From Desulfuromonas sp. (GTDB lineage Bacteria; Desulfobacterota; Desulfuromonadia; Desulfuromonadales; SZUA-401): 18,337 nt of DNA. The stretch lies in the NCBI GenBank assembly GCA_002869605.1, contig PKUI01000031.1, positions 1 to 18,337 on the forward strand. Reading direction: 5' to 3'. The notes beneath the pieces were generated by a model. The model was given only the letters and a program-made list of their open reading frames with translations. It was not told the DNA's origin and did not search any database. Shown here piece after piece: positions 8,182-18,337 of this stretch; the stretch's first letter is position 1; each line of letters starts with the position of its first letter. The position numbers and the translations under genes are program-made.

Positions 8182-8831
8182 AGTGCTTGCTCCCGTGGAA
8201 GAATAAAATGTTGAGTGATCGCTTCGGCGGCAGCCGCCGCATCGGCGACCTGCAGGTCGAAGCCGCTCTCCTGCGTGCCGCCATAAACCAGCACGGTCTT
8301 CATGCCGAGTTCGCGCGCCCGGACAAGATTGGCCGCCGAATCTTCAACCATCACGCAGCGCCGGGGGTCCGCCGCCAGGGTCTCGAGCACCCTGCGGTAC
8401 GGCTCGGGGTTCGGCTTCGGCATGTACGCAGCGATGCGGACATCGAAGATCTGGGTAAAATGGTGTCCGACGCCGAGAGCATCGAGCACCCGCGTGGCAT
8501 GCTCGCGAGAGCCGTTGGTAAACACGTGACACGGCGCATCGAGCGCCGCGAGGCTGCCTTGCAACCGCTCATCGGGGATAATGCGCGAGGCGATATCGAC
8601 ATCGTGCACGTAGTCAAGGTAAGCCTCGGGGTCGACCCGGTGATGCCGGATCAGCCCCTGCAGGGTGGCGCCGTAGTCCCTCCAGTAGCGACGCCGTAAG
8701 CCGTCGACCTCGGGTACGGGGATCGCCACCTCCTCGACCATGAAGCGATTGATACGCACGTCGATAAGCGAAAACAGGTCGTGCTTCGGGTCGTAGAGGG
8801 TGTTATCGAGATCGAACAGGACGGCTTCCAC
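8178..8831 (-). CDS. HAD-superfamily hydrolase, pyrimidine 5'-nucleotidase type
   Basis: Predicted phosphatase of 217 residues. HAD motif I is FDLDNTLYD with nucleophile Asp7 and Asp9, motif II is FTNGS (Thr105), motif III is Lys139 in MPKPNPEPY, and motif IV is VMVEDSAANL (Glu163, Asp164). The pattern fits the SDT1/phenylphosphatase-like pyrimidine 5'-nucleotidase group, probably a house-cleaning nucleotidase; the substrate is inference. I chose the GTG at 8831, which overlaps the HIT stop by one base (TAGTG) behind a GGGGGCGGG stretch. A longer frame from 8936 would run through the HIT gene and only adds low-complexity residues. Confidence 0.88.
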   Translation of the reverse strand: MEAVLFDLDNTLYDPKHDLFSLIDVRINRFMVEEVAIPVPEVDGLRRRYWRDYGATLQGLIRHHRVDPEAYLDYVHDVDIASRIIPDERLQGSLAALDAPCHVFTNGSREHATRVLDALGVGHHFTQIFDVRIAAYMPKPNPEPYRRVLETLAADPRRCVMVEDSAANLVRARELGMKTVLVYGGTQESGFDLQVADAAAAAEAITQHFILPREQAL

Positions 8832-9247
8832 TAACCCGCCCCCAGTGCCTTGCGGATCGCCTTGATCCGGGCGGCGTTCTCGTTGCTGCTCAGGTGCAGC
8901 TCCGCGTGCGCTTCGCTCCAGATCGGCCGGGGCCATAACGGATCGTCGGTGAAACGTGGCACCAGGTGCCAGTGGATGTGCGGCACCATGTTGCCGAGCA
9001 GCTCGTAGTTCATCTTGGCCGGCTGGAACAGTTCGGCGAGCGCTGCGGCGACCCGCACCATCTCCTCCATCACCCCCTGACGAACCTCGGGCTCGAGGTG
9101 AAAAAGCTCGGTGACATGCTCACGGGTGAACAACAGGCAGTAACCACGAAAATACTGGTCGCGGTTGAGGACCAGGCGTGAATATTTGCCTTCCCAGATT
9201 TGCAGGTCGGCATCATCCTCCCAGCGACTGCACATCACGCAACTCAT
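8831..9247 (-). CDS. HIT-family nucleotide hydrolase
   Basis: Histidine-triad protein of 138 residues. The catalytic HxHxH is VPHIHWHLVPRF (His90, His92, His94), and the N-terminal strand region RLVLNRDQYFRGYCLLF is typical of dinucleoside-polyphosphate (Ap4A-type) hydrolases. An N-terminal CVMC pair (Cys3, Cys6) may bind zinc together with later residues (inference). The start has GGGGAG about 11 nt upstream, inside what was probably dapF coding sequence: extending dapF past its TGA gives a stop that overlaps this ATG as ATGA. Confidence 0.92.
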   Translation of the reverse strand: MSCVMCSRWEDDADLQIWEGKYSRLVLNRDQYFRGYCLLFTREHVTELFHLEPEVRQGVMEEMVRVAAALAELFQPAKMNYELLGNMVPHIHWHLVPRFTDDPLWPRPIWSEAHAELHLSSNENAARIKAIRKALGAG

Positions 9248-9285
9248 TGTGGACTGTACTCCCCGGAAAAAACCTCGACGGCAGG
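9244..9285 (-). other. Severed 3' end of dapF (in-frame sequence after the TGA)
   Basis: Directly after the dapF TGA (9286-9288) the same frame continues with 13 codons, PAVEVFSGEYSPQ, and then a second TGA at 9244-9246. Together with a glycine at the first TGA this restores GPAVEVFSGE, which matches the conserved DapF C-terminus (E. coli ends GPATHVYDGFI, from memory). The second TGA overlaps the HIT ATG as ATGA, the coupling style used elsewhere in this operon. Confidence 0.85.
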
Positions 9286-10083
9286 TCAGGTCATGAAGAC
9301 CTCGCCGTCACCGCACCATTCCATCTCCAGGTCGCCACCGAGCAGGTGGTTGACGAGCTGCCCCTCGGTGCGCCCGGTCAGCACCCCGGCCACGGTCACC
9401 GCCGAGGCCCCGGTGCCGCAGGCAAGGGTTTCCCCCGCGCCCCGCTCCCAGGTACGCTGGCGTACCTCGCGACTGGAGAGCACTTCGACAAACTCGACGT
9501 TGATCCGCTGCGGAAAAGCCGGGTGGTTTTCAATGGCAGGACCATAGGTCGCCACCGGGAAGTTCGCGACATCGTCGACGAAGATCACGCAGTGCGGGTT
9601 TCCCATCGACACGCAGGTCACCGCGAAGATGCGATCGAGCACCTGCAGTCGCTGTTCGACGACCTCCCCCTCGCCCATGGTCACCACCGGGATTTCATGG
9701 GCATCGAGACGCGGACGCCCCATATCGACACGCACCTTGTCGACCCGGCCGTCATCGTTGAGGCTCAGTTTGAGCGACAGCACCCCGGCACCGGTCTCCA
9801 CGAGGATGGCGGTTTCGGCGACCAAGCCGTGGTCGTAGGCATACTTGGCCACGCAACGCACGCCGTTGCCGCACATCTCCGCCTCGCTGCCATCGGCATT
9901 GAACATCCGCATGCGCACATCGGCGCTCTCGCTGGGAAGGATCAGGATCAAACCGTCCGAGCCGACGCCGAAATGACGATCGCTGATCTTCCGCGCCAGT
10001 GTCGCCGGATCGTCGACCTGCTCCTCGAAACCGTTGACGTACACATAGTCGTTGCCGGCGCCGTGCATTTTGGTAAATTTCAT
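9286..10083 (-). CDS. dapF: Diaminopimelate epimerase, C-terminus cut by an in-frame TGA
   Basis: Converts LL- to meso-diaminopimelate for lysine and peptidoglycan synthesis. As read it has 265 residues. Catalytic cysteines are Cys71 (MCGNGVRC) and Cys222 (ACGTGA); [11 protein letters not shown] (6-16) and [13 protein letters not shown] (159-171) are family signatures. I start at the ATG at 10083, with GGAG 5 nt upstream; a GTG two codons earlier is possible. The frame stops at ...GEVFMT, just where DapF normally continues with a conserved GPA..V..G. The codon is TGA instead of an expected GGA or similar, and reading through gives 279 residues, the usual size. The last strand is therefore missing unless the TGA is an error or is read through. 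Confidence 0.93.
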
Positions 10084-10224: not shown

Positions 10225-10689
10225 ATGCTACGCTGTGCCCTATCCGCCCTCGCCCTGCTTCTGAGCCTGTGCGTCACCGCGGGCGCCGTCAGTCTCGACG
10301 ACTTCGCACCGCGGGTGCAGGACCTGAATGTCACCGCGCACGCCGACCTGCCAGGCTTCAAGGCGACGCTCTCGAGCAGTTTCGGGGTTCCGGTACCGCG
10401 CATCGAAAAGCTGGTCGTTGCGCTCGGTTCGCCCGCCGACGCCTACTTCTGCCTCAAGCTCGGCCGACTCAGCGGGCACTCCATCGAACGGGTCCAGCAT
10501 GAATTCCAGGCCCACCGCGGCCAGGGCTGGGGGGTAATCGCCAAAAACCTCGGCATCAAACCGGGCTCCAAGGCCTTCCATGAGCTCAAGAATACGGAAA
10601 AGTTCAAGCAACAGCACAAAAACAAACACAACAACAAGAACCAGAACAAAAACAACAAGAGCAATAAAAACAAGGGCAAAAAGAAGTAG
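10225..10689 (+). CDS. Secreted protein with GWGVIAK...GIKPGS domain and Lys/Asn-rich tail
   Basis: Function not recognised. The 154-residue product begins with a signal peptide (basic MLR, hydrophobic core to about residue 18, AGA cleavage site near 21), so it should be periplasmic or exported; Cys16 lacks a proper lipobox. Residues 72-123 form a compact domain with YFCLKLGRLSGHSIERV and GWGVIAKNLGIKPGSKAF (101-118), a motif I recall from uncharacterised proteobacterial exported proteins. Residues 128-154 are a low-complexity tail of 11 Lys and 9 Asn among 27 residues, strongly basic and A-rich at the DNA level. The start is well marked by AGGAGG 5 nt before the ATG. Likely co-transcribed with the two genes that follow. 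Confidence 0.85.
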   Translation: MLRCALSALALLLSLCVTAGAVSLDDFAPRVQDLNVTAHADLPGFKATLSSSFGVPVPRIEKLVVALGSPADAYFCLKLGRLSGHSIERVQHEFQAHRGQGWGVIAKNLGIKPGSKAFHELKNTEKFKQQHKNKHNNKNQNKNNKSNKNKGKKK

Positions 10690-13919: not shown

Positions 13920-14303
13920 TTACATGGTATCGAAGTCGTCCGCCTCAACCATGTCGCCACTTGTATCCAGGAACGAATCCTTTTGTGAATCCTTGACGAC
14001 TTCGACCTGATTATGCGCTACGGAACAGACCGTGCCGCAAATCGTGCATTCGTAAAGTTCTTCATGAAACTGGAAGGCCTGCAGGTCGGTTTCACGGCTG
14101 ACCATGCACCGACACGTCGGGCAGACGAAATCGGTGCTCACCGTCTGCTTTTTTTGCACGCGTCCCTTGATGATTTTCAACACCTCTCCTGAAAAGGTCC
14201 AAATCCCTCCACAGTCTCCGCATTCACGCGCATCTTGCGAGAATCCCTCGGCATGCAGATCGATCTCGACATGCTTCTTGCTTTTGCACAACGGACATTT
14301 CAT
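13920..14303 (-). CDS. Double zinc-ribbon protein, function unknown
   Basis: The 127-residue soluble protein has four CxxC knuckles: CPLC (3-6), CGDC, CPTC and CTIC. Paired in order they would make two zinc ribbons, one N-terminal (CPLCKSKK...ECGDCGGIW) and one central (VCPTCRCM...YECTICGTVC). The C-terminal third is acidic (SGDMVEADDFDTM) and probably disordered. I start at the ATG at 14303 because the CPLC knuckle follows at once; GGGAGG lies 10 nt upstream. A frame to 14522 adds 73 residues of no recognisable character. Possible roles are nucleic-acid binding or a structural zinc protein; nothing decides. Confidence 0.75.
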   Translation of the reverse strand: MKCPLCKSKKHVEIDLHAEGFSQDARECGDCGGIWTFSGEVLKIIKGRVQKKQTVSTDFVCPTCRCMVSRETDLQAFQFHEELYECTICGTVCSVAHNQVEVVKDSQKDSFLDTSGDMVEADDFDTM

Positions 14304-14424
14304 TGGCCTGGCACCTCCCATGAATTTATCGCTAGCTGCAGTCTCTAATTCAAAGTGTAGCCTATTTAGGCCCGACCAGCAAAACCCTGCCGTGCGCTCC
14401 CTGCCTGGAGAACACGCGGATTTT

Positions 14425-14451
14425 TTGTAAGCAGCTGGCTTTGTGTATAAA
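14425..14451 (+). promoter_or_regulatory. Weak candidate promoter for the AspT-type transporter
   Basis: TATAAA (14446-14451) with TTGTAA (14425-14430) 15 bp upstream, a short spacer; an alternative TTTTTG has 18 bp. It would give a leader of about 120 nt. The rest of the 275-bp gap between the zinc-ribbon gene and the transporter shows nothing recognisable. Confidence 0.3.
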
Positions 14452-14578
14452 ATTGATGTATTTAAAACAGCTGATTTCAATAGACTGATGGTCGAACGTT
14501 TTGGCGGGGCAGCCTTCTGCACCCCTTCCGCCTGTCATTCATCATCCGTACAACCCCTCACGACTCTCCGGAGGCCTC

Positions 14579-17309: not shown

Positions 17310-17720
17310 GTGATTATTACCCGCGCCACAGAATACGCTATCCGCGCCGTCCTGCACCTTGCTGCACAGCCCGAGGGAGAGATTGTCCTCAAGAAGGACA
17401 TCTGCCGCGAGCAGGACATCACGCCGGCGTTTCTGACCAAGATTCTGCAGCCGTTGATCAAGGCCGGCGTGGTCGGCTCCCAGCGCGGCGTTGGTGGCGG
17501 ATTCTACCTGCTCAAAAAACCGAGTGAGATCAGCCTGCTCGATATCCTCGAAGCCGAGGAAGGTACACTCTATCTCAACCAGTGCCTGGTCGAGCCGGGC
17601 ACCTGCGAGCGGGACGCCTTCTGCCCGGTGCACGGAGCCTGGCGCGATATCCGCCAGGAGCTCTCATCCGTCCTCTCCAAGCATACCTTCCAGCAGCTAC
17701 TGAAGCGTAACAACCGCTAG
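17310..17720 (+). CDS. Rrf2-family transcriptional regulator, probably Fe-S binding
   Basis: Winged-helix regulator of 136 residues. The N-terminal ITRATEYAIRAVLHLA (3-18) and the recognition region FLTKILQPLIKAGVVGSQRG (41-60) with GGGFYLLK are standard for Rrf2/IscR/NsrR/CymR proteins. Three cysteines, Cys92, Cys99 and Cys105, stand in the IscR cluster-binding position with spacing C-x6-C-x5-C (E. coli IscR is C-x5-C-x5-C, from memory), so it probably senses iron-sulfur status, oxygen or NO. Start is GTG at 17310 with a perfect AGGAGG 5 nt upstream. The stop overlaps the convergent mnmH stop in CTAG (17717-17720). Targets are unknown. Confidence 0.92.
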   Translation: MIITRATEYAIRAVLHLAAQPEGEIVLKKDICREQDITPAFLTKILQPLIKAGVVGSQRGVGGGFYLLKKPSEISLLDILEAEEGTLYLNQCLVEPGTCERDAFCPVHGAWRDIRQELSSVLSKHTFQQLLKRNNR

Positions 17721-18337
17721 CTTTCGCTTCCCGCCACCAGCAACTCAACAGCGCGCTTGAGCTGCTCCAGACCGTCTGCCCACGACGCCATATCGATCTC
17801 CACCCGCCGCTCCGGACAGGTGTGCTGATAGAGCGGATCGTAGTAGTCGATCATCAGCTCACGTACCAGCTCACGCCACTCCCCGCGCTCCAGGTACGCC
17901 AGGAAACTCGCGATCTTCTTTTTACCGAGACGCTCGGTAAGCGCCTTGATCGGGCGCTCGAACAGTGCCGCCTGGGCTTCGCGTGCGGGGTAATCCTCGA
18001 GGATGATATCGATGCGCTGCTCCAGCGGGGTATCGATCCAGAGTGAGGTCTCGACCTGTAGTGCATCGTAGACCTGCTTCGGCAGGGCCAAGCGCCCGAT
18101 ATGACGGCTCTCCCCTTCGCTGAGGGCGTAGCCATCGACAGGAATGCGCCGCATGGCGTCCCACAGCAACGCCTCGAAATTCTTCTGCGTCGGCTGCCGC
18201 TCGAGCCCGACCCCACCGAAGGCGCTGCCGCGGTGACAGGCCAGCCCCTCGAGGTCGAGCACCGGGTAGTCCTGCGCCTGGAGCTCGTGCAGCAGGCGGG
18301 TCTTGCCGGTGCCGGTCAGGCCGCGCAACACCAGCAA
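17717..18337 (-). CDS. mnmH: tRNA 2-selenouridine synthase, C-terminal part (5' end outside the window)
   Basis: MnmH/SelU replaces sulfur by selenium in the wobble 2-thiouridine of tRNAs for Lys, Glu and Gln, using selenophosphate. The visible 206 residues are the P-loop half: Walker A GLTGTGKT at the very start, then the hallmark LDLEGLACHRGSAFG, and ALPKQVYDAL. The N-terminal rhodanese domain, which bears the catalytic Cys, lies beyond position 18337; the frame is open at the edge and the first visible codon (TTG) is internal. Its presence implies selenophosphate synthesis (SelD) in this organism. It is convergent with the Rrf2 gene, with no room for a terminator between. Confidence 0.95.
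   Translation of the reverse strand: MLVLRGLTGTGKTRLLHELQAQDYPVLDLEGLACHRGSAFGGVGLERQPTQKNFEALLWDAMRRIPVDGYALSEGESRHIGRLALPKQVYDALQVETSLWIDTPLEQRIDIILEDYPAREAQAALFERPIKALTERLGKKKIASFLAYLERGEWRELVRELMIDYYDPLYQHTCPERRVEIDMASWADGLEQLKRAVELLVAGSES

Follow-up and report, generated by a model that had tools for sequence, protein, structure and literature searches.

The window, by which we mean the whole 18,337-nucleotide stretch of DNA analysed here, carries on its minus strand a dapF gene, encoding diaminopimelate epimerase, with a HIT-domain gene downstream of it (Table 1). Translation of the frame from 10083 to 9247 gives ...GEVFMT, a stop, and then PAVEVFSGEYSPQ. The dapF product as it stands is therefore 265 amino acids long and ends in MT; the TGA that closes it (9288–9286 in the direction of the gene) is followed by a C, and a second TGA (9246–9244) overlaps the ATG start codon of HIT (9247–9245). 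Counted across the first stop, the frame comprises 279 codons. A frameshift rather than a substitution was considered and rejected, since the tail lies in the same frame and there is no net insertion or deletion. The stop also lies inside a perfect 5-base tandem repeat, TGACC TGACC (9284–9293, minus strand), which could reflect a slippage-templated change or chance.

Table 1. Coordinates of dapF, its in-frame stop and the adjoining HIT gene in the window.
Feature	Coordinates	Strand	Basis
dapF open frame (diaminopimelate epimerase), up to the first stop	9286..10083	-	265 aa + TGA; TIGR00652
In-frame TGA at conserved Gly codon	9286..9288	-	Gly in 120/120 listed homologues
13 codons after the stop, encoding the normal DapF C-terminal tail	9247..9285	-	Tail comparison, structure mapping
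Ancestral TGA stop of dapF (ATGA overlap with the HIT start)	9244..9246	-	Junction in 6/31 distinct related loci
HIT-domain gene, downstream of dapF	8831..9247	-	Pfam PF01230, 54.6 bits

The truncated protein scores 304.3 bits with the NCBIfam model TIGR00652, against a curated cut-off of 114.65, and the match covers profile positions 1–257 of 270, leaving the last 13 positions unmatched. It resembles DapF (TIGR00652, PF01678) along all 265 residues and contains both Cys motifs, MCGNG and LACGTG. C71 and C222 fall in invariant columns of an alignment of 26 sequences and, by homology, would be the catalytic pair (PMC5296763). In several DapF relatives a HIT gene follows dapF, as it does in the window. 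The difference from other DapF proteins lies at the end: the window stop sits at the very Gly that opens the last strand, such that the last 14 residues fall outside the open frame and the complete Gly-led C-terminal strand is absent from it.

Eleven other genes in the window (hemC, hemA, ccsB, dtd, nfo, HAD, HIT, darP, thioredoxin, GluQRS and an AspT-like transporter) match their family models over nearly their full length, and no second lesion was seen in these eleven. The same check is uninformative for cysG-N (161 of 205 profile positions matched), for an MBL protein whose best family falls below its cut-off, for MnmH, which is cut by the window end, and for a 200-amino-acid protein without an NCBIfam family (13920–14522). 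The open frame of the last of these, on the minus strand, has four CxxC motifs. The mnmH piece (17717–18337, minus strand) is the C-terminal part of a tRNA 2-selenouridine synthase gene; its match to NF008750, at 190 bits, falls under the cut-off of 241 as a partial sequence, and the presence of mnmH in the window suggests a selenium-using lineage. Adjoining dapF on the opposite strand is a frame of 154 amino acids (10225–10689, plus strand) whose start is signal-like and whose C-terminus is very rich in Lys and Asn. Scans of the window for tRNA, tmRNA and Rfam families (gathering threshold) gave no matches. An earlier note on this DNA had likened the ATGA overlap between dapF and HIT to coupled junctions elsewhere in the operon, and such junctions are indeed present: ATGA recurs at cysG-N/ccsB and HAD/nfo, and dtd/darP and HIT/HAD overlap in another form.

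A protein search scored at least 7999 relatives, of which we examined 120 listed homologues. The site of the stop is Gly in every one of these 120 (119 GPA and one GPS) and a stop in none, and the Gly is followed by exactly 13 residues in all but one of them (P0008, with 12). The closest among the listed homologues, P0001, is 90% identical to the window protein and intact at 279 amino acids. The earlier note had placed an in-frame TGA at a conserved Gly near the end of a 279-residue DapF, and its coordinates, reading and length are all borne out; it had also allowed that close relatives might all end at MT, and instead both the Gly and the tail are found in every listed homologue. With P0001 as query, we scanned 136 genomes of the order to which the nearest genome locus (L001) belongs, which similarity suggests is the window's own order. 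This search returned 141 matches in 131 of the 136 genomes. Internal stops occur in none of the 134 matches that cross the site, a set that includes two distant homologues (G053 and G056), and the other seven matches end before it. The sole stop recorded among matches in the order is a TAA in a partial match (1–206, in G081) that likewise ends before the site. The best genome locus is 73% identical to the window protein and the best locus in the order 76% identical to P0001, and at identities of only 73–76% the stop cannot be dated on DNA. As far as these comparisons reach, the stop is private to the window sequence, occurring in none of the relatives examined.

The earlier note had further supposed that a single GGA to TGA change explains the locus, which is an assumption. 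A one-base route to TGA needs GGA, and this is a minority Gly codon at the site: among 33 related loci we found GGC in 19, GGT in 9, GGA in 4 and GGG in 1. The pattern used for this count required Gly, and it therefore shows which Gly codon is used and not how universal Gly is; it matched 70 of 90 loci, the 20 unmatched loci that were left out all lie outside the set of 33, and two pairs among the 33 share a sequence, giving 31 distinct loci. Across 16 frames of the window, GGA accounts for 49 of 350 Gly codons, a count that includes some frames whose starts are over-long and that takes in HAD from one codon too early.

Beyond the stop, the first 10 residues of the tail are identical to those of P0001 and the last three differ. 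An ungapped comparison of these first 10 codons with the 31 distinct related tails yielded 56 nonsynonymous and 150 synonymous differences and 104 identical codons. Only synonymous differences separate the window from four of the 31 relatives (L002, L085, L086 and L089), with 0 nonsynonymous and 4 synonymous differences over the 10 codons in the case of L002. These substitution counts reflect mainly selection in the relatives. The earlier note's view that a normal DapF ending follows the stop is supported. Its observation that the second TGA overlaps the HIT start as ATGA is also upheld, and extends to relatives: the same junction with a HIT-like start was seen, reading translations by eye, in 6 of the 31 distinct loci (L001, L002, L003, L004, L008 and L087), which marks the second TGA as the ancestral stop. 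By these sequence comparisons, the tail is ancestral and undecayed. That its first 10 residues show no change from P0001 while the rest of the protein differs by ~10% suggests that the stop probably arose after most of this divergence, or is unreal, or leaves a tail that is still used. Taken together with the lack of a second lesion wherever family models allowed a check, the undecayed tail points to a recent event or to a consensus error. It also speaks to the notion of a naturally short DapF with downstream similarity by chance, which is refuted by the presence of the tail in 120 of 120 listed homologues and its match to the window's 13 codons.

By alignment, the 14 residues lost from the window DapF start at the published start of the segment with which the chain returns to the N-terminal domain. 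In the DapF of C. glutamicum, the N-terminal domain is described as Met1–Asp131 plus Gly268–Ile277 and the C-terminal domain as Met132–Thr267, with dimer contacts made mainly by strand β16, which joins the N-domain sheets (PMC5296763). Our inference is that β16 corresponds to the C-terminal strand and its Thr-Gly to the Thr-stop of the window DapF, the C. glutamicum protein standing outside our alignment. The N-domain of Anabaena DapF is likewise given as 1–123 plus 269–280 (PMC12039745), and the site Gly of P0001 aligns to chain position 269 of that protein (counted back from 278). The C-terminal strand is reported to make up most of the dimer surface in a related histidine racemase, an arrangement described as shared with other enzymes of the class (PMC11602996). 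The lost segment also includes the residue aligned to Tyr268 of E. coli DapF, where Y268A together with R36A is reported to disrupt dimerization and activity (PMC7144940, citing Hor et al. 2013); PDB 4ik0 has the change at 268 alone. The likeness to the E. coli Y268A protein is that the changed Tyr aligns to a Phe of the window's lost tail; the difference is that Y268A is a point substitution in a full-length chain, whereas the window protein is a truncation.

AlphaFold2 models, built from alignments of 25 and 26 sequences for two proteins that themselves differ by 10%, place a strand at 262–275 in P0001 and at 262–264 in the window protein. Mean confidence over residues 1–10 falls from 69 in P0001 to 44 in the window protein, as if the N-terminal strand had lost its partner, although this is only indicative; against it, overall confidence stays almost level, at 87.4 vs 86.5 for mean pLDDT and 0.85 vs 0.84 for pTM. 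If translated as written, the 265-amino-acid product would end before the strand that closes off the N-terminal domain and supplies much of the dimer interface, and it is probably inactive.

The underlying gene would be an ordinary dapF of 279 codons from an uncultured bacterium akin to the Desulfuromonadales, in which a stop private to the window sequence has taken the place of the conserved Gly codon. We rank an error in the consensus sequence as the most likely origin of this stop, with a probability of about 0.5; possible sources would be a miscalled base, template damage where coverage was thin, or an assembly that picked up a minor defective variant. The absence of the stop from all relatives examined, the intact tail and the lack of a second lesion in the eleven genes that could be checked count for such an error, and the fact that the loss strikes a segment that matters in structures argues against a real allele. 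On the other side, an ancestral GGC or GGT, the codons of 28 of the 33 loci, would differ from TGA by more than one base, and a single miscall would not account for that. Oxidized template is known to leave G-to-T changes, a consideration that speaks for error only if GGA was ancestral. A single lesion in 18.3 kb is equally what one real mutation looks like, and a real, very young nonsense allele ranks next, as a serious if somewhat less probable contender. The strain would then make a DapF of 265 amino acids that is probably a monomer with little or no activity, and would grow on leftover epimerase activity (from a leaky TGA or another racemase) or with much L,L-DAP. The intact surroundings, where checked, are consistent with a young allele, as would be the 5-base repeat at the site if slippage templated the change; that every relative examined is free of the stop tells against such an allele. 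Loss of dapF need not be lethal, and by calling the gene essential the earlier note goes too far as a general statement: in E. coli, a mutant with dapF deleted is reported to need neither meso-DAP nor lysine, still making some meso-DAP and accumulating L,L-DAP (PMC4227774). Set against this, dapF is among the genes with low insertion frequency in an E. coli TraDIS study (PMC5821084), so its loss carries a cost there.

A young allele could also be tolerated if another enzyme stood in for DapF. Distant DapF-like proteins (33–34% identity) occur beside a normal dapF in 2 of the 136 genomes of the order (G053:C21:94599-95408 and G056:C33:18309-19124), lending this some support; they are possibly other cofactor-independent racemases. 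The earlier note had named DapL and Ddh as bypasses, and on established pathway knowledge this is half right: the product of DapL is L,L-DAP, on which the epimerase must still act, and only Ddh is a true bypass. A Ddh profile found matches in 45 of 134 genomes of the order, six of them above 100 bits. Five of these genomes, including G001, have Ddh-like matches of 109–131 bits, below the cut-off of 180.6, which would be compatible with some bypass; just one genome of the 134 exceeds that cut-off, which weighs against the young allele.

The remaining readings would keep the stop and have the ribosome pass it. Functional readthrough, in which some ribosomes read UGA as an amino acid and produce a little full-length DapF, enough for growth, seems unlikely to us. 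UGA is considered a weak terminator when the next base is C, and a small leak is therefore likely if the window stop is real. The undecayed tail would fit readthrough, but a recent or erroneous stop is equally expected to leave it so. Bacterial in-frame stops common to orthologues, with purifying selection downstream, have been described, with TGA leaky (PMC7918605), and the window dapF resembles those genes in that one TGA interrupts a frame which stays intact beyond it; the focus of that study is on stops common to species, whereas no relative examined shares the window stop. With the stop in 0 of 120 listed proteins and 0 of 134 site-crossing genomic matches, nothing shows its maintenance, and Trp, the residue reported for leaky TGA (PMC7918605), would occupy a position where all 120 listed homologues have Gly. 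Readthrough is without positive support. More improbable again is a real strain in which the leaky UGA throttles DapF dimerization and so the supply of meso-DAP, most of the protein being inactive monomer and the few full-length chains forming the working dimers. Insertion of selenocysteine at the UGA would be very surprising. The machinery is plausible, with SelB over its cut-off in 114 of 134 genomes of the order and part of the selenium gene mnmH in the window, but the site is structural rather than an active-site Cys, and it is Gly, not Cys or Sec, in all 120 listed homologues. Moreover, folding against shuffled controls found no stable SECIS-like hairpin just after the UGA: three folds of the region (41–73 nt) were less stable than the shuffle mean (z +1.71, +0.91 and +0.71). 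Atypical SECIS elements have been reported (PMC12013277). Nothing beyond the dapF codon itself speaks for TGA as a sense codon in the source organism, and this can be set aside almost entirely: TGA is the terminator of cysG-N, dtd and HAD, each of which overlaps the start of the gene after it, and the ancestral dapF stop is itself TGA, which disfavours an altered code at the scale of the window.

Since the 265-amino-acid product easily passes the DapF model, annotation alone would probably not flag the stop, and a gene caller would record such a private stop as a slightly short protein. A consensus error remains our preferred reading; if the stop is real, the locus would offer a natural experiment on bacterial survival when DapF has lost its dimer strand, or when an enzyme for a cell-wall precursor is supplied by reading through a stop.
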